DNA of 64,000 nt from assembly GCF_029433105.1 (NCBI RefSeq), contig NZ_JARNTW010000014.1:118480-182479 (forward strand). Direction: 5' to 3'. The stretch comes from Runella sp. MFBS21 (GTDB taxonomy: Bacteria; Bacteroidota; Bacteroidia; Cytophagales; Spirosomataceae). The translations under genes and the position numbers were made by a program. The notes under the pieces were generated by a model, which did not search any database, was not told where the DNA came from, and saw only the letters and a program-made list of their open reading frames with translations. Positions 55,603-63,751 of this stretch are shown one piece after another. How positions within the stretch are numbered: the stretch's first letter is position 1; each line of letters starts with the position of its first letter.

Positions 55603-55657
55603 TCTTTAATTTGAGATTTTAAACCCTACCGTGTTCCAAAATACATACAGCTTTATT

Positions 55658-56485
55658 ATGCGCTTTAAGATATACCTAAAACCTCTACGTGACCGACAAA
55701 AACTTTTGTTTAATTACCAATACCCTTTACAGGCTTGGATTTATGGGTTGTTGGCGCGGGCAGATGCGGATTATGCTACATTTTTGCATCAGCAGGGCTA
55801 TGAGTTGGCAGCCACCCGAAAAACATTTAAGCATTTCACTTTTTCGAGTTTGGTGATTCCACGCACGGAGCCCATTCGAAAAGGAGATACGTATATGGTG
55901 CTTCGTTCGGATATATTGAGTCTTGTTATTTCGTTTTATGTAGACAAAGCCGCCGAGGGTTTTATCATAGGATTGTTTCAAGAGCAGCAGCTTTGTATTT
56001 ACAACCGTGAGTATCGCGCCGACTTTGTGGTAGAGCGGGTAGAGACGCTACCCGTGGTGCCCATAGATGCGACCATGGCCTTTCGTACGTTATCGCCGAT
56101 GGTAGTGGCCAAAAAAACAGACAGTTTAGATCAGTATTTAGCCCCGACAGATGCGGAATTTGGACGATTTTTTGCGGTCAATTTGGTCGATAAACTACGT
56201 TCGATACAGCCTTCCATGCACATGGATGTAGCAATTGCCGAGCGACTCGTGAAGTTTGAACTCTTGAGCGACCCTGAGCGCATCAAAAAACGAGGTATTT
56301 TGACCAAAGAGGGGAAAGAAAGGCTACAGACGAAAGTGATTGGTTATCACAATTTTACATTTGCGTTAACGGCTCCACCCGAACTTATTGAAGTGGGGTA
56401 TTTGGGAGGATTTGGCCGCTATAGCGCGATGGGATGTGGGTGTGTGGAGGTTTGCGAAAGACCGTTTGCTAACTCATCGTTTTAA
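55658..56485 (+). CDS. cas6: CRISPR endoribonuclease Cas6 (stand-alone copy)
   Basis: 275 residues from the ATG at 55658; a GTG at 55631 would add 9. RAMP-fold Cas6 cleaving CRISPR precursor RNA. N-terminal R-F-K-I-Y-L-K-P-L, then the catalytic region F-L-H-Q-Q-G-Y-E with His, followed by F-K-H-F-T-F-S-S-L with Lys in the position known from Pyrococcus Cas6, and a C-terminal Gly-rich loop G-Y-L-G-G-F-G-R-Y-S-A-M-G. It is not followed by other cas genes, and sits between two WYL genes. A second, shorter Cas6 opens the cas operon at 57956. Confidence 0.9.
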   Translation: MRFKIYLKPLRDRQKLLFNYQYPLQAWIYGLLARADADYATFLHQQGYELAATRKTFKHFTFSSLVIPRTEPIRKGDTYMVLRSDILSLVISFYVDKAAEGFIIGLFQEQQLCIYNREYRADFVVERVETLPVVPIDATMAFRTLSPMVVAKKTDSLDQYLAPTDAEFGRFFAVNLVDKLRSIQPSMHMDVAIAERLVKFELLSDPERIKKRGILTKEGKERLQTKVIGYHNFTFALTAPPELIEVGYLGGFGRYSAMGCGCVEVCERPFANSSF

Positions 56486-56582: not shown

Positions 56583-57509
56583 ATGAATAAATTTAATGAT
56601 AATAGCCCCAAATACCGTTTGTTAGCGATTCTTAAGCTATTGATTGAGAGTCCGTATCAATATACTAAAAAGACATTGGCTACTAAGTACAACGTTGACC
56701 CTGATACAATTAAAAAAGACTTTGAGGAGCTTCGAGATGCTGATTTTAATGTTGATTATGATAATAAATATAGGTATGCTATTGTGCCCAACAAACCTTT
56801 AGAACACTTAGAGGATATGCTATTTTTTACCGAAACCGAAAAAGAAATTTTAATGGAGGCGCTTTCAGTCAATCCAAAAGCTTCCGAGAAAAGATCTAAG
56901 CGAATGCAGGAAAAGCTCAATATGATTTATGATGTGTCGAAGCTAGGGAGTAGTTTGTTTTCGCGGACTTTTCTCTCAAAAGTCAACTTGCTCCAACAAG
57001 CTAAGCAACAGAAGAGAGTTGTGAAACTTGTCAATTATCGTTCGACGAATAGCAGTGAAGTTTCCAATAAATTGGTTGAACCCTTTTCGGTGAATGTCAA
57101 AGAAGATATTCTTCACGCCTTTGCCCTAGACCGTATGGATATTCGACATTACAGGATTTCGAGGATTGAGCGCGTAGAATTACAAGAAATGACGTGGCAG
57201 CACGAAACGCTACACTATGTGACCGCTACCGACCCATTTAGGATTGTAAACGACCATAAAGTAAGGGTGCACATTCGATTGAAGGTAGGAGGATACAATG
57301 AGCTGATTGAGCGTTTTCCGTTGACACAAGCCTATCTACAACCCTCGGCGGAGGAACCTAGTGTGTATGATTTTGAGTGTAATGTGAATGAAAGGTTTTT
57401 CGGACTAACCAATTTTATATTGGGATATCACGAGCATATTGTAGAAATAGTAGAACCAGAATCGCTCATTGAGCATATCCGAAGGCACATTGCAAAAATA
57501 AATTTTTAG
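56583..57509 (+). CDS. WYL-domain transcriptional regulator (second of two)
   Basis: 308 residues, divergent in sequence from WYL-1. N-terminal helix-turn-helix (K-K-T-L-A-T-K-Y-N-V-D-P-D-T-I-K-K-D near 28-45), WYL-like core near 155-205 with V-N-Y-R-S-T and I-L-H-A-F-A-L-D-R, and a WCX end. It lies directly upstream of the crRNA-like RNA and the cas operon, and is the likely protein-based regulator of that promoter. Palindrome 57565-57584 or the direct repeats further downstream could be its sites, but the crRNA-like explanation covers the latter better. Confidence 0.88.
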   Translation: MNKFNDNSPKYRLLAILKLLIESPYQYTKKTLATKYNVDPDTIKKDFEELRDADFNVDYDNKYRYAIVPNKPLEHLEDMLFFTETEKEILMEALSVNPKASEKRSKRMQEKLNMIYDVSKLGSSLFSRTFLSKVNLLQQAKQQKRVVKLVNYRSTNSSEVSNKLVEPFSVNVKEDILHAFALDRMDIRHYRISRIERVELQEMTWQHETLHYVTATDPFRIVNDHKVRVHIRLKVGGYNELIERFPLTQAYLQPSAEEPSVYDFECNVNERFFGLTNFILGYHEHIVEIVEPESLIEHIRRHIAKINF

Positions 57510-57564
57510 AAATTTTGAGGGGTAGGGCAGATAATGAGGGGGGAGGGGTGTAGGTTTGGGGCAT

Positions 57565-57584
57565 AGATTATAACATTATAATCT
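57565..57584. promoter_or_regulatory. Perfect AT-rich palindrome after WYL-2
   Basis: AGATTATAA-CA-TTATAATCT, 9-bp arms with a 2-base centre. Preceded by a G-rich stretch, followed by no T-run on the forward strand. Could be an operator for the WYL regulator or part of the end of the WYL-2 transcript. Confidence 0.5.
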
Positions 57585-57591
57585 GTAGAGG

Positions 57592-57672
57592 AAAAAAGGT
57601 TTTTACCTGTCGAGTACGATTAATATCTAACGATTTACTTGTATTTTTCAATTCCCTGAAGGTAAAAACCAG
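57592..57672 (-). ncRNA. CreR-like crRNA-like regulatory RNA (repeat-spacer-repeat)
   Basis: Read on the reverse strand. Degenerate repeat 1 (57670-57645) begins GGTTTTTACC and ends GGAATTGAAAA, so it holds the ATTGAAA handle typical of type I-B-like CRISPR repeats. The next 17 bases, ATACAAGTAAATCGTTA (57644-57628), are the spacer-like part. Degenerate repeat 2 (57627-57598) contains TTAATCGTAC and ends GGTAAAAACC. A T6 tract (57597-57592) follows; the first 10 bases of repeat 1 and the last 10 of repeat 2 are complementary and would form a terminator-like stem. TAATTTCG (57682-57675) is a one-mismatch -7 box at the right place. The spacer equals a site in the cas promoter. Function inferred. 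Confidence 0.75.
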
Positions 57673-57745
57673 TTCGAAATTAGGTGTTATAGGTGATAAA
57701 TAGAAATAAAATAGGAACGATATTAATTACAAAATAAAAATATTT

Positions 57746-57765
57746 TAACGATTTACTTGTATTGG
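57746..57765. promoter_or_regulatory. Target site of the crRNA-like RNA in the cas promoter, CCA PAM
   Basis: TAACGATTTACTTGTATT (57746-57763) is an 18-base exact repeat of the spacer region at 57628-57645, of which 17 bases belong to the spacer. On the strand that equals the spacer, the three bases immediately 5' are CCA (57765-57763), a known good PAM class for I-B systems. The match ends after the 17 bases of the spacer, which would allow binding but not cleavage. Confidence 0.75.
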
Positions 57766-57788
57766 AAATTATGATTGTGCTACCTTTG
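57757..57788 (+). promoter_or_regulatory. Promoter of the cas operon
   Basis: TTG (57757-57759), 21-base spacer, TACCTTTG (57781-57788): a textbook Bacteroidota promoter, with start near 57795 and a 20-base leader to the ATG at 57815. The -33 TTG lies entirely within the crRNA-like target site. Confidence 0.8.
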
Positions 57789-57814
57789 TTGCATAATCAT
57801 AAGATACTATCAAT

Positions 57815-57943
57815 ATGAGCAACAAAGAAGTATTAATTAATCGCCCTAAAACAGTTTGTATGAATTGTGGCCTTTGCTTTTTTACTGATTTGCAAGGAGA
57901 TTGTGCTATTTGCCTTGGGCTTCATTTCACCAAAGAGTCTTAA
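57815..57943 (+). CDS. Small four-cysteine protein leading the cas operon (42 residues)
   Basis: ATG at 57815, 20 bases after the predicted transcript start, TAA at 57941. The product has C-M-N-C-G-L-C in the middle and C-A-I-C near the end, so five cysteines in all, four of which form two C-x-x-C pairs 13 residues apart: the layout of a zinc ribbon. It contains an aromatic stretch and no signal. The next gene, cas6, begins 12 bases later. I know no family; a zinc-binding accessory Cas protein or a small regulator are possible, as is a decoy ORF. Too short for standard gene callers, which may be why such genes go unnoticed. Confidence 0.65.
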   Translation: MSNKEVLINRPKTVCMNCGLCFFTDLQGDCAICLGLHFTKES

Positions 57944-57955
57944 AAAAAGAAAAAA

Positions 57956-58621
57956 ATGAGGTTACACATTAGTCTTACACAAAATACAACTATCGTTCCG
58001 TTTAACTATCAGGAACAGCAAGTCAGTAAGTTACATTATTGGCTTGGCAAAAATGAGATACACGATAAGTTATCTCTTTATTCTTTTTCATGGCTAAAAA
58101 ATGGTCGTCAAGAGGGAAGTAAAGGTTTAAATTTTAGAACTGGAAGTCAGTTTTTTATTAGTTGTTATGATAGTTTACTCATAAAACAACTAATAAAGAG
58201 CATACAGCAAAATAATGACTTTGGTTGGGGAATGAAAATCACGGCTTTGGCTCTTGAAAAAGAGCCAGATTTTGAATCTGAACACAGATTTTTAGTGGGT
58301 AGTCCTATTTTTATCAAACGGTCAACTCCAAATGAAAAAGGGGCTAAGTTTTTCTATTATAATGATAAAGAAGCGAATCAGTTTTTGACCGAAAGCTTAC
58401 AGCATAAGCTTAATGATGCTGGATTGTCGTATGAAGACGTTTTTGTTCAGTTTGATGAATCTTATCAAAATCCAACGACTAAAGGAGTTACCTACAAAGG
58501 CATTTTTAACAAAGGCTCGATATGTCCCGTAATCATCAACGGAACTCCCGAACAACTGGCATTTGCATGGAATGTTGGCGTAGGAAATTCAACAGGTATT
58601 GGCTTTGGCTCATTAATTTAA
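57956..58621 (+). CDS. cas6: CRISPR endoribonuclease Cas6 (operon copy)
   Basis: 221 residues, shorter than the stand-alone Cas6. N-terminal M-R-L-H-I-S-L-T, a candidate catalytic His in N-E-I-H-D-K-L-S-L-Y-S-F-S, which aligns with the H/K/F-T-F-S region of Cas6, and a C-terminal G-V-G-N-S-T-G-I-G-F-G Gly-rich loop. Processes pre-crRNA and would stay with the type I effector. It precedes cas5 by 6 bases. Two Cas6 proteins this close usually mean two repeat types, or one serving another system. Confidence 0.9.
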   Translation: MRLHISLTQNTTIVPFNYQEQQVSKLHYWLGKNEIHDKLSLYSFSWLKNGRQEGSKGLNFRTGSQFFISCYDSLLIKQLIKSIQQNNDFGWGMKITALALEKEPDFESEHRFLVGSPIFIKRSTPNEKGAKFFYYNDKEANQFLTESLQHKLNDAGLSYEDVFVQFDESYQNPTTKGVTYKGIFNKGSICPVIINGTPEQLAFAWNVGVGNSTGIGFGSLI

Positions 58622-58627
58622 GATACA

Positions 58628-59215
58628 ATGGAAAAATATTATGTAGTTAAATACAGCGGACAATTCGGTTTTATAAAGCCGTGGACTGCGGTAAGAGATA
58701 GCGAAACATTTTCGCAACAATTTCTTACTCCTTCAATTGTTGAAGGTATCGAGAAAAAGCTGTTTCCTGAGTTGTTGGGGGAAAATGGAATCAAAAAAAT
58801 TGTAAGATATAGACTTTCCTACGCTCAAATTAATGCACAACAGGAGGTAATACAAACAAGAGGATGGAATTCTACTCGTCAGGGAAAACAGGTTTTATTC
58901 GATAGACCCAAAGCCATTTTATTGAGAGGAGTACTACTTGAACCCGACTTATTTCTGGTATTCAACACAAAGGAAGATGCCCAAAGAGCATTTACGCAAC
59001 ACATTTGCTTGTGTAGAAATGAAGATTTGTTATTTCCTGTATCAACAGAAGAAATTTTCATCAATCAATTTGATGAAGATACTGAGCGTTTTTCTGGTTA
59101 TGAGTTAATGTTCGAGAAAAACGAAAAATCGTTTATGGTGGGGTATCATCGTGTTACAAATGAACCCATGTATGGCTGGTTAAAAATAGTAGGAACACCT
59201 GTTAAACAATTTTAA
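58628..59215 (+). CDS. cas5: Cascade subunit Cas5 (type I-B-like)
   Basis: 195 residues. RAMP fold; the start Y-V-V-K-Y-S-G-Q-F-G-F-I-K and T-P-S-I-V-E-G-I-E-K-K-L-F correspond to the Cas5 F-x-x-x-F-R...P-T-S-T-V-x-G-I-x-x-x-L pattern. Caps the 5' handle of the crRNA. Its TAA shares one base with the ATG of cas3 (TAATG), so translation is coupled. Identification rests on this pattern and on position. Confidence 0.8.
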   Translation: MEKYYVVKYSGQFGFIKPWTAVRDSETFSQQFLTPSIVEGIEKKLFPELLGENGIKKIVRYRLSYAQINAQQEVIQTRGWNSTRQGKQVLFDRPKAILLRGVLLEPDLFLVFNTKEDAQRAFTQHICLCRNEDLLFPVSTEEIFINQFDEDTERFSGYELMFEKNEKSFMVGYHRVTNEPMYGWLKIVGTPVKQF

Positions 59216-61365
59216 TGGAAAAGCTATATGCAAAGTCAGGTCCAGAATGGACGAGCTTAGAAGACCACTTACATCATGTGGCTATTGCTGCTCAAAAATT
59301 TGCTAATCATTTGGGATTAGACCAACATTTAGCCTATAAAGGAGCAATTCTTCACGATATAGGAAAAGCTCACCCTGCTTTTCAAGAACGTTTGATAAGT
59401 AATGGTGTAAAAGGAAAAACCTATAGACACGAAATAGGTTCTCTTTTCTTTCTATCTATATTTCAAGATTCAGAATGGAATATCCTGATTGAAATGGTTG
59501 TTGGACATCACAAATCAGTTAAAAATGATAGTGGAGAAAAAGGATTACTTGATTTAGACAATGGCTATGATTATTTAGACCATCATTTAGGGAAATGGGA
59601 GGAATGGAGCGATAGAGGTATTGCTTTATTTAATCAATTTGGCATAGTTGCACATCCTATTACTAAAGAAAAAGCATTAGAAAATATCGAATACGTTATC
59701 AAATATTGTAAAAAGAGAGTAAAGCAACGTGGTTATTCTGAATGGCGTGGCGTGTTAATGGGAGCAGACCATTTTGCCTCTGCACTGATTCATGATACAG
59801 AAAAGAATTTAGATAGATTATTCAAGTCACCTAACCTATCTTTTTTTCAGAGAGAAAGTAAACTATATCCATTATCTCAAGTGAAAAACTTTACTTCTGA
59901 CAAAAGACATACGATTGTTGTAGCTTGTACGGGAGCAGGAAAAACTGACTATCTATTTAAAAGATGTAGAGGACGAGTTTTTTATACGTTACCCTTTCAA
60001 GCATCTATCAATGCGATGTTTAAAAGAGTAGCCCATTCACTTCAAGATACTAATCCTGATTTGGATATTAGGGTTTTACACGCTGCTTCAAGTGTTGTAA
60101 AGAGAGGAAAAGAGGAAGAAGAAAGTGTTTTACAGTCATTATTTGGCTCATCCGTAAAAATCTTGACTCCTCACCAATTAGCGGCTGTTGCTTTTGGGCT
60201 GAAAGGTTATGAAGCCTTATTATTAGACTTGAAAGGTTGTGATATTATTCTCGATGAAATTCATACATACTCAGGTATTTCACAAGCCATTGTTTTGAAA
60301 CTTATTGAGGTTTTAAATAAAATTGATTGCAGAATTCACATTGGAACGGCTACTATGCCAACTATACTCTATACCAGAATTCTTCAGTTATTAGGAGATA
60401 ATGTATTGGAAACAAGCTTGCCACCTGACGAATTAGATAAATTTGACCGTCATAGAGTTCACAAAGTAGAGTCTTTTGATTCCACTAAACAATTGATTTC
60501 CAATGCTGTGAATAATAATGAGAAAGTTCTAATTGTTCTCAATACCGTTGACAAAGCACAAGAGGTATATGCCTTGATTAGAGAGCTTTACCCAAAAACA
60601 CCAACGTTATTATTGCATAGTAGATTTAGAAGAGGTGATAGAAATAGTAAAGAAAAAGACTTGTTAGGCTTAGATGAACAAGGTACTTCTATCAATTTAT
60701 TCAATACATCAAATAAAGCCTGTATTGTCGTTTCTACTCAGATTGTAGAAGTTAGCTTAGATATTAGTTTTGACATAATGGTGACTGAAACCGCACCCTT
60801 GGATGCACTTGTTCAACGATTTGGCAGAATTAATAGAAAAAGAACGGAAGACACGATTGGTAAAATTAAGGATGTTTATGTGATTGCTCCGCCTGACACA
60901 GAGAAAGAAGCTAAACCGTATGAGTTAGAGGCGCTGCAACGGACATTTGAAGTACTCGAAGATGGAGAGATACTTAAAGAAAGAAATCTACAAGCAAAAA
61001 TAGACCAAGTTTTCACAGAAATCAATTTTATGAAAATTGAAGAACACGCCATATTCAAAGAAGACGGTAGAATTACTATTGATTGTCTTACACACAATAG
61101 CAAATCCATTCTGTTTGAATTACTTGATATTGATTCAGTTGCTTGCATCAGAGAAGCAGACCAAGAGGAGTATGAGAAATCTTATTTTGAGAGAAGGCTC
61201 GAATTAGAGATTCCTGTACGATATTTTTCTGTGTGCAAAATGAACCAGATTGAAAAAGGCAACCGCCCGTTCCTTATACCAGACAAAGCTTATAGTGAAG
61301 AAATGGGGCTTTTTGTAAGAGAAATAAAGGAAGGAAATTTTAACTCTAAATATCAAATATTATGA
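59215..61365 (+). CDS. cas3: CRISPR helicase-nuclease Cas3 (HD plus DEIH helicase)
   Basis: 716 residues. HD nuclease (about 15-200): D-H-L-H-H-V near 18-23, L-H-D-I-G-K-A-H near 48-55, R-H-E-I-G and V-V-G-H-H-K-S. Helicase: Walker A A-C-T-G-A-G-K-T-D near 238, Walker B/DEIH in I-L-D-E-I-H-T near 345, motif V V-S-T-Q-I-V-E-V-S-L-D-I near 508 and motif VI Q-R-F-G-R-I-N-R-K near 538. Unwinds and degrades DNA recognised by Cascade. Overlaps cas8 by 4 bases (ATGA). Confidence 0.95.
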   Translation: MEKLYAKSGPEWTSLEDHLHHVAIAAQKFANHLGLDQHLAYKGAILHDIGKAHPAFQERLISNGVKGKTYRHEIGSLFFLSIFQDSEWNILIEMVVGHHKSVKNDSGEKGLLDLDNGYDYLDHHLGKWEEWSDRGIALFNQFGIVAHPITKEKALENIEYVIKYCKKRVKQRGYSEWRGVLMGADHFASALIHDTEKNLDRLFKSPNLSFFQRESKLYPLSQVKNFTSDKRHTIVVACTGAGKTDYLFKRCRGRVFYTLPFQASINAMFKRVAHSLQDTNPDLDIRVLHAASSVVKRGKEEEESVLQSLFGSSVKILTPHQLAAVAFGLKGYEALLLDLKGCDIILDEIHTYSGISQAIVLKLIEVLNKIDCRIHIGTATMPTILYTRILQLLGDNVLETSLPPDELDKFDRHRVHKVESFDSTKQLISNAVNNNEKVLIVLNTVDKAQEVYALIRELYPKTPTLLLHSRFRRGDRNSKEKDLLGLDEQGTSINLFNTSNKACIVVSTQIVEVSLDISFDIMVTETAPLDALVQRFGRINRKRTEDTIGKIKDVYVIAPPDTEKEAKPYELEALQRTFEVLEDGEILKERNLQAKIDQVFTEINFMKIEEHAIFKEDGRITIDCLTHNSKSILFELLDIDSVACIREADQEEYEKSYFERRLELEIPVRYFSVCKMNQIEKGNRPFLIPDKAYSEEMGLFVREIKEGNFNSKYQIL

Positions 61366-62698: not shown

Positions 62699-63751
62699 AT
62701 GACAATGATTTATATTAGAACTTTAAAAAGAGCAGAGCATACTGTGTTTTGTGTGTCTGATGGACAAAAATACTATTATGACACCCAATTTAATAGAAGA
62801 ATCCCTTATTCAAGTGGACAACAGATAAAACGTTCCTTGATTGATTCCTTGTGTGCTGAAATTAAACAAACGCCATCACCTACCACTTTTTTATTTGATG
62901 TTACAAAACAAAAGGAACTAAAAGAAGGTGAGGTTTATGGTACTTGCGACCCTACTTATGCAGACCAACTATTTGGTGGTTGGATGAAAGCAGCTAAGGG
63001 AGGAAAAGATAGAACACTCAAAAGAAGAAGCCCTTTATCAATTTCTGCAATGAGAGCATTACATCCTTTATTAGCTGGTACTTATGCCGAAAATGCGTCT
63101 TTTGACAGAAGTGAAAGACCTAATAACTTGGTAATAGTGCGTGATGAAAAAGGTAACGAATTGAATGACAATGAAATTGTTGCGTTTTTAGAGGACAAAG
63201 ATAGAAGCTTGAGTCGTAAATGGATTCCAGATAATAAAAGAGCAACAGGTTTGTTTGTTTCTGATATTGCTATTGATTTAAGACGACTTTTTTCCGTTTC
63301 AGTTAATTCATTTGAGCCTGAAATGTCAGATTCTACTATTGAAAAACTTCGTTCAGAGGGGTGGATTGAGTCTGAAAATGTATTTGGGAAATGCTTAGTA
63401 GCTCCTAAATCTCTTCGTGAAAAATGGATAAAAGGTTTGGCTAAAGCTCTCATTGATTGGAAAATAACATCTAATCAAGCCAGAACATTTAGTTTGATGG
63501 ATACTTTGGCTATTTCCATAAGTGATAATGCGAATCTTATTGCAGGTAGTATTCGGGCTAAACTATCAGAAGAGGATTCTGATAAGGCAAATCCAATCAT
63601 AGACGAATCGTTGAAAGGGGTTAACACATTTATTACTTTACAGGCAGGCGGTTTTATCCAGACAAAAGGAGAAACATACGATGCTCTCGAAAAAGCAGAA
63701 ACCCATCTTATCCAACTTCTTTCTGATTTTGATTACGAAAATCAGGTTTAA
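62699..63751 (+). CDS. cas7: Cascade backbone subunit Cas7
   Basis: 350 residues. DevR/Cst2-like RAMP: R-T-L-K-R-A-E-H start, R-R-I-P-Y-S-S-G-Q-Q-I-K-R-S near 33-46, and R-S-P-L-S-I-S-A-M-R-A-L-H-P near 105-118. Multiple copies coat the crRNA along the spacer. Last gene of the operon in the window; the 249 bases that follow contain no cas4, cas1 or cas2 and no array. Confidence 0.88.
   Translation: MTMIYIRTLKRAEHTVFCVSDGQKYYYDTQFNRRIPYSSGQQIKRSLIDSLCAEIKQTPSPTTFLFDVTKQKELKEGEVYGTCDPTYADQLFGGWMKAAKGGKDRTLKRRSPLSISAMRALHPLLAGTYAENASFDRSERPNNLVIVRDEKGNELNDNEIVAFLEDKDRSLSRKWIPDNKRATGLFVSDIAIDLRRLFSVSVNSFEPEMSDSTIEKLRSEGWIESENVFGKCLVAPKSLREKWIKGLAKALIDWKITSNQARTFSLMDTLAISISDNANLIAGSIRAKLSEEDSDKANPIIDESLKGVNTFITLQAGGFIQTKGETYDALEKAETHLIQLLSDFDYENQV

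Follow-up and report, generated by a model that had tools for sequence, protein, structure and literature searches.

A predicted CreR-type guide RNA beside the type I-B cas operon of a Runella species, with similar elements in related Bacteroidota

The minus-strand element at positions 57674-57592 of the DNA analyzed here is, judging by its sequence features, very probably a CreR-type guide RNA, and Cascade carrying this RNA likely represses its own type I-B cas operon. This DNA, termed the window, is a 64,000-nt stretch from Runella sp. MFBS21 (GCF_029433105.1, contig NZ_JARNTW010000014.1, 118,480-182,479), and all coordinates are given within it; L-numbers denote loci from relatives or other genomes that were compared, while C25 and C29 are contigs of the window's own genome that carry CRISPR arrays. 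The element combines a pseudorepeat-pseudospacer-pseudorepeat (ψR1-ψspacer-ψR2) architecture, a target match with a PAM, a closing stem and a promoter-like box, and it recurs with changed sequence in relatives.

The element and its repeats

Genes flanking the element lie on the plus strand and comprise a first cas6 (55631..56485, found by profile match and PADLOC) and a WYL-domain regulator (56583..57509) on one side, and, on the other, an ORF for a 42-aa small protein with a CxxC...CxxC pattern (57815..57943, from ORF analysis and comparison), cas6b, the second Cas6 gene (57956..58621), cas5b (58628..59215), cas3 (59215..61365), cas8b of family PDLC01511 (61362..62678) and cas7b (62699..63751). 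PADLOC types the series as Cas6b, WYL, Cas6b, Cas5b, Cas3b, Cas8b and Cas7b, which corresponds to type I-B. The ψrepeat-ψspacer-ψrepeat arrangement beside a cas operon that had been claimed in the original prediction was confirmed. Two different Cas6 proteins thus flank the CreR region, and one of them may serve CreR or another array type.

Including a candidate -7 box, the predicted CreR gene spans 57592..57682 on the minus strand. Its ψR1 (30 nt, 57645..57674) keeps the Cas5-binding 5' handle ATTGAAA, with a stem arm in place of the 5' half of the repeat; it is followed by the 18-nt ψspacer ATACAAGTAAATCGTTAG (57627..57644) and by ψR2 (30 nt, 57597..57626), which starts with ATATTAATCGTAC, keeps part of the first half of the repeat (TTAATCGTAC) and has lost the handle. 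A T6 tract at 57592..57597 marks the predicted end of the RNA. The two degenerate repeats, the first ending with GGGAATTGAAA, and the T6 tract were all found where the original prediction had placed them; the spacer-like segment, described there as 17 bases, is present but measures 18 nt when the 30-nt repeat length of the genome sets its boundaries, and 17 of these match the target.

The resemblance to type I-B repeats, put forward in the original prediction, also holds against the genome's own CRISPR repeats, so that the refuting outcome named there, an unrelated genome repeat, did not occur. Its two large arrays have 30-nt repeats ending in CTTTTAATTGTACCATTTAGGAATTGAAAT / TTTAATTGTACCATTTAGGAATTGAAAT (C25) and GCTTTAATCGTACCATTTAGGAATTGAAAC / TTTAATCGTACCATTTAGGAATTGAAAC (C29), and the ψrepeats are related to them, with GGAATTGAAA and TAATYGTAC common to both. 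ψR1 ends with GGGAATTGAAAA, and the GGAATTGAAA of the genome repeats is retained in full (10/10) as the ten letters before its final base, while the first 14 letters of ψR2 are identical to the genome repeat at 10 positions. Over the full 30 letters, just 15-18 are identical between either ψrepeat and the genome repeats, divergence having occurred outside the kept parts. The array spacers are mostly 34-38 nt long, compared with 18 nt for the ψspacer. The element stands outside any array and next to a cas operon, and its repeats derive from the CRISPR repeats of the genome. A search against Rfam gave no family match in 57300-58000 at E values up to 1.

Target, PAM and cas promoter

Positions 1-17 of the ψspacer are identical, at all 17 letters, to a protospacer at 57746..57762 on the minus strand, which is flanked by the PAM CCA in guide sense (57763..57765). 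A match of this kind in the cas promoter region, with a PAM, is the decisive feature of CreR and was unnoticed in the original prediction; together with the same architecture in relatives, it supports the likeness to CreA/CreR RNAs claimed there. Bacteroidota promoters take the form TTG (-33) / TAnnTTTG (-7). Within the target lies a plus-strand candidate -33 TTG (57757..57759), 21 nt upstream of the candidate cas -7 box TACCTTTG (57781..57788), which lies 15 nt past the PAM, with identical spacing in L131; the next ORF begins at 57815. Over 17/17 nt next to CC, the ψspacer thus matches the promoter region of the neighboring cas operon, this promoter being predicted from motifs only. An imperfect 15-nt inverted repeat (57769..57802) spans the cas -7 box and may be a protein operator, e.g., of the WYL protein, providing a second control of the promoter.

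With the last base of ψR1 included, the match extends to the 18-letter AATACAAGTAAATCGTTA, whose second copy occupies 57763-57746. This 18-mer has two sites in the window, and none of 100 shuffles contained two or more; allowing up to two mismatches, the 7.88-Mb genome contains these two sites only, where a reversed control pattern gave two chance sites. When the PAM and guide positions 1-11 (position 6 free) were searched genome-wide, two sites were obtained, the cas promoter and one other, against one for the reversed control. In guide sense, CC precedes the target copy and AA precedes the copy inside the RNA gene, so that the latter would escape recognition.

For the type I-B system of Bacteroides fragilis, with the repeat ATTTCAATTCCATAAGGTACAATTAATAC (reverse complement ending in AATTGTACCTTATGGAATTGAAAT), PMC9367070 describes a G at the second and third positions downstream of the protospacer, which corresponds to CCN in guide sense and agrees with the CC found here, the repeat being of the same type. 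A search of a phage collection with array stretches from five loci (L012, L013, L032, L028 and L086) gave no match, and this published PAM was therefore used as the reference instead of one from the genome's own arrays; a comparison of 1654 distinct array spacers with the compared loci yielded nothing usable, with three partial rows within L073.

Recurrence in related operons

Upstream regions were collected from 71 loci found via Cas7, eight of which had no usable cas5 (63 kept), and from 45 found via Cas5, eight of which were left out as duplicates; a script removed six further regions, among them L038, a near-duplicate of L042, whose match has no CC. After duplicates and loci without cas5 were dropped, there were 95 regions, and 93 of these were scored, L022 and L085 being skipped as array-like. 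The scan required at least 8/10 for ψR1, at least 8/11 for ψR2 and a target with at most four mismatches in positions 1-17, with no PAM rule and no favored mismatch position. It returned 26 matches, 17 of them with a CC PAM, whereas 950 shuffles gave 61 matches, three with CC (Fisher p 5e-9). No CC match was found in 76 of the 93 scored regions, and the nine matches without CC fit the shuffle rate (61/950).

Mismatches between guide and target in the 17 CC elements fall at position 6 in nine cases, at position 12 in 14 and elsewhere in 11, so that 23 of 34 lie at positions 6 or 12 against four expected. The binomial p of about 3e-14 assumes equal positions and independent cases and is too small given sister species; their elements share ancestry, and these counts and p-values are therefore not for independent cases. 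In Cascade, every sixth crRNA base is described as flipped out and unpaired (PMC5904413), and since the guide numbering follows array spacers, positions 6 and 12 correspond to these flipped-out bases. The mismatch pattern was taken only from this position-neutral scan, an earlier score having left out positions 6 and 12. A loose composite scan (17/64 versus a null of 27/512) was not counted as evidence by itself, and two weak loci, L106 and L091, were left uncounted.

Hosts named among the 17 elements are Emticicia (2), Cyclobacterium, Lunatimonas, Anditalea, Marivirga, Chitinophaga, Ilyomonas and Epilithonimonas, as well as MAGs of Cytophagales, Cryomorphaceae and Proteiniphilum; they span four orders of Bacteroidota. 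In L131, from the same family as the window, the guide AAACAAGTAAATTGTAA differs from the ATACAAGTAAATCGTTA of the window and the target AAACAAGTAAAATGTAA has changed in step, with a single mismatch, at position 12, over positions 1-17. A share of related operons across the phylum thus has similar predicted elements in which the guide has changed and the target has changed to match.

The arrangement varies among these loci. The RNA lies on the cas strand in L101, L105, L107 and L024; in L101, L105 and L107 (and, more weakly, L106), such cas-strand CreR-like elements have upstream targets 78-408 nt away, representing a second layout. In L018, L023, L037, L068 and L099, the target is located a few bases before the start codon, with no recognizable -7 box between. 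Among close relatives, no convincing CreR candidate was found between the WYL gene and cas6b in L017/L125 (Flectobacillus, Cas7 96%) or L090 (same genus), where this gap is just about 90 bp; a search elsewhere gave nothing beyond weak, chance-like candidates in L017 and L090, and none in L128, with about 3.5 kb of sequence for each of L090 and L128. L017/L125 and L090 lack the entire stretch with CreR and the small ORF and have kept sequence resembling that immediately past WYL, an observation that points to gain or loss of a cassette.

Promoter of the RNA and closing stem

Immediately upstream of ψR1, the candidate CreR -7 box TAATTTCG (57675..57682, minus strand) is one letter off the Bacteroidota motif TAnnTTTG, and L131 has a full -7 box, TATCTTTG, at the corresponding place. 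Of 18 elements, 13 have a T[AT]nnTT[TC]G box 27-40 nt ahead of the guide (shuffle mean 1.0, maximum 6 in 2000 trials), and the strict TAnnTTTG form at the same place in 10 (mean 0.3, maximum 4 in 2000 trials).

The 5' part of ψR1 pairs with the 3' part of ψR2 in a closing stem, which in the window is a perfect 11-bp inverted repeat on the minus strand with arms GGTTTTTACCT (57660..57670) and AGGTAAAAACC (57598..57608), also unnoticed in the original prediction. The predicted RNA folds at -16.8 kcal/mol (z -2.5), and two of 200 shuffles were equally stable. Stems of 12 bp (L032, L071 and L145), 11 bp (L131 and L143) and 9 bp (L049) occur in relatives, with mostly unrelated letters. A MAFFT alignment of ten elements left the stem arms unaligned, so arm-swapping permutations were used instead of pair counting: across 22 elements, own arms had a mean of 16.1 against 10.4 for swapped arms, and across the first 18 elements 15.4 against 10.4, with none of 20,000 permutations reaching the observed value in either set. 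Four elements found through the small ORF, with the stem not a criterion (L142, L143, L145 and L146), have stems of 8-12 bp, and of the 24 possible arm arrangements, the true one pairs best; the stem of L142 alone is no better than swapped arms. The stem is slight or absent in L027, L033, L037, L039 and L041. The cas-strand elements L101 and L105-L107 were left out of the stem and promoter tests. L021, a match of the loose composite scan with a weak ψR2 and a position on the other strand, was left out of the stem tests. On inspection by eye, several elements are followed by T-runs or a further hairpin.

Small protein of the operon and alternative readings

The predicted cas promoter leads into the 42-aa ORF and then into the cas genes. 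The encoded protein carries the motif LINKP-CxNCG...CxxCxGF and is a candidate new CRISPR accessory protein. A protein search recovered three relatives only; within the host family, matches with E no higher than 0.01 occur in 15 of 222 genomes, its own included and the weakest probably by chance, and at E up to 0.001, two of 395 genomes across the phylum match, namely its own and a weak one with an internal stop. Being the first gene behind the target and recurring in other CreR-bearing operons, the ORF could be viewed as the toxin of a CreTA/CrePA-like addiction module repressed by the RNA. This is very unlikely, as the ORF was seen with just three of the 18 elements (the window, L032 and L131; L148, the L071 copy, matches weakly), is oriented like the cas genes, stops 12 bp short of cas6b and has no Pfam or NCBIfam family match.

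The two exact 18-bp copies, 118 bp apart, might also be read as an operator pair for a protein regulator such as the product of the adjoining WYL gene, with incidental repeat-like flanks, a reading with which the dyad across the cas -7 box would fit. It leaves unexplained, however, both the halves of type I-B repeats and the mismatches of relatives at positions 6 and 12. The copies are moreover not equivalent, the CC PAM being present at one only and the other being set between repeat halves; guides are unrelated in relatives, and L047 and L033 show no WYL-gene match in the sequence examined. Such an operator pair is accordingly regarded as highly improbable. Least probable of all is a decaying, functionless mini-array with a self-acquired spacer, for although the repeats are degenerate and the element is absent from sister genomes, the ψspacer is far from array length, guide, target and stem are kept with changed letters in distant relatives, and the promoter-like box upstream is kept in 13 of 18 elements.

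Proposed mechanism

Under the preferred reading of a CreR-type RNA directed at its own cas operon, transcription, Cas6 processing, Cascade loading, repression and feedback can be proposed from these features as follows. The RNA would be transcribed from its own promoter, starting near 57670, and the 11 bases at its start would pair with the 11 at its end, closing the molecule ahead of the T6 tract. The kept ATTGAAA handle and the TTAATCGTAC motif would let Cas6 and/or Cas5 take up the RNA, whose processed form would carry the 5' end AUUGAAAA. Bound at 57746-57763, Cascade with this RNA would likely lie over the predicted -33 box and so repress the operon. The short guide would allow stable binding with too little pairing for cutting by Cas3. 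This fits published observations that matches no longer than 18 bp suffice for maximal Cascade affinity and that Cas3 action requires extensive pairing (PMC5904413), and that a 24-bp spacer in the Haloarcula type I-B system gave repression without interference (PMC10989794), as far as these sources describe them. Canonical crRNAs would compete for Cascade, and the operon would therefore be released at high crRNA levels, or if an anti-CRISPR blocks Cascade.

Relation to known systems

CreR stands for Cas-regulating RNA, for which the reviews PMC12737573, PMC12948488 and PMC13131331 cite Liu et al. 2023 (doi 10.1016/j.chom.2023.08.005), and the name has been applied to types I-B, I-E and V-A (PMC13131331). 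As in the present case, CreR is described in these reviews, the source of this comparison, as a crRNA-like RNA with a guide matching the promoter of the cas operon to which it belongs; the predicted family differs in belonging to Bacteroidota type I-B systems, in the stem joining ψR1 and ψR2, in a mostly divergent promoter and in the 42-aa CxxC protein of some operons.

CreA, the RNA of CreTA in type I-B haloarchaea, shows the same split retention, ψR1 keeping the last 8 nt for Cas5 and ψR2 the first nucleotides for Cas6 (PMC9458426), and has a ψspacer that partly matches a promoter beside a PAM (PMC9458426, PMC8501985). According to PMC9458426, no hairpin is conserved among ψR1 or among ψR2 sequences of CreA, whereas a stem joins the two ψrepeats in many of the present elements. 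CreA is moreover directed at a toxin RNA, in contrast to the cas operon here. In Cas9 systems, tracr-L mediates autoregulation through a short promoter-matching guide. Gene regulation by a short guide is also described for scaRNA of these systems (PMC9458426). Both resemble the present element in their guides but involve a type II effector and an unrelated RNA. Racr, the phage RNA anti-CRISPRs, are likewise repeat mimics outside arrays, but are described as phage-borne solitary repeats that inhibit Cas proteins and have no promoter target (PMC10651486).

Among the literature matches listed, with the original CreR report outside that comparison, no paper on CreR in Bacteroidota was found, and the string 'bacteroid' is absent from PMC12737573, PMC8501985 and PMC13131331. 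The CreR class is known; the Bacteroidota family, the closing stem and the associated 42-aa CxxC protein appear new, as judged apart from the content of the original CreR paper. If borne out, this would extend RNA-guided CRISPR autorepression to a phylum prominent in the gut and the environment, and would open to direct test how type I-B defense is held at a low level in Bacteroidota and whether it is turned on by anti-CRISPRs. Mismatches at flipped-out positions together with the PAM may provide a comparative signature for recognizing CreR genes from sequence alone. The persistence of the closing stem despite changed letters suggests a means of short-guide stabilization that could be used in type I-B gene-repression tools.

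Association with different Cas8b families

The 42-aa ORF again heads the operon beside a CreR-like element in L142, L143, L145 and L146, where Cas8b belongs to PDLC01507 (L142 and L143), PDLC01387 (L145) and PDLC01109 (L146). In a search of these ORF-linked loci that required CC and left positions 6 and 12 unscored, targets with seed matches of 10/10 were obtained for L145 and L146, and no CC target was found for L142 or L143. Without a PAM rule, and with positions 6 and 12 again ignored by the search score, L142 and L143 have one target each, preceded by TC, with guide-target mismatches at 6, 12 and 17 (L143) and at 6, 9, 12 and 17 (L142). L144 has the ORF beside a Cas8b of PDLC01623, and no CreR was recognized at this locus. 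It would be reasonable for the PAM to change with Cas8b, since Cas8 is the subunit that reads it, although a claim to this effect would need more than two cases.

These data raise the tentative possibility, somewhat short of an even chance, that type I-B systems of Bacteroidota share a portable cassette, in which a divergent, stem-closed CreR blocks the cas promoter and is joined, in one family, to the 42-aa zinc-ribbon-like protein. Such a cassette would move among at least four Cas8b families, its guide and target re-evolving each time and its PAM following Cas8b (CC with PDLC01511, PDLC01387 and PDLC01109; TC with PDLC01507). If so, the closing stem would represent a separate solution to producing and protecting a guide RNA.

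Wider locus

The contig of the window ends 249 bp past cas7. Contig C25 carries cas1 between ORFs that by eye resemble cas4 and cas2, followed by an array, and its cas1 stretch has 69% identity over 2521 nt with the stretch before the array behind cas7 in the Flectobacillus locus L017; because of this likeness in layout, the window contig and C25 probably form one locus. Shared short repeats are located near contig ends, in the vicinity of cas7 and cas4-cas1, in L002 (322-359), L012 (15205-15234 and 16698-16727) and L017 (near 11065). In L012, an ORF beside these repeats resembles, by eye, a REP-associated transposase, and such repeats are a likely reason for the contig break.
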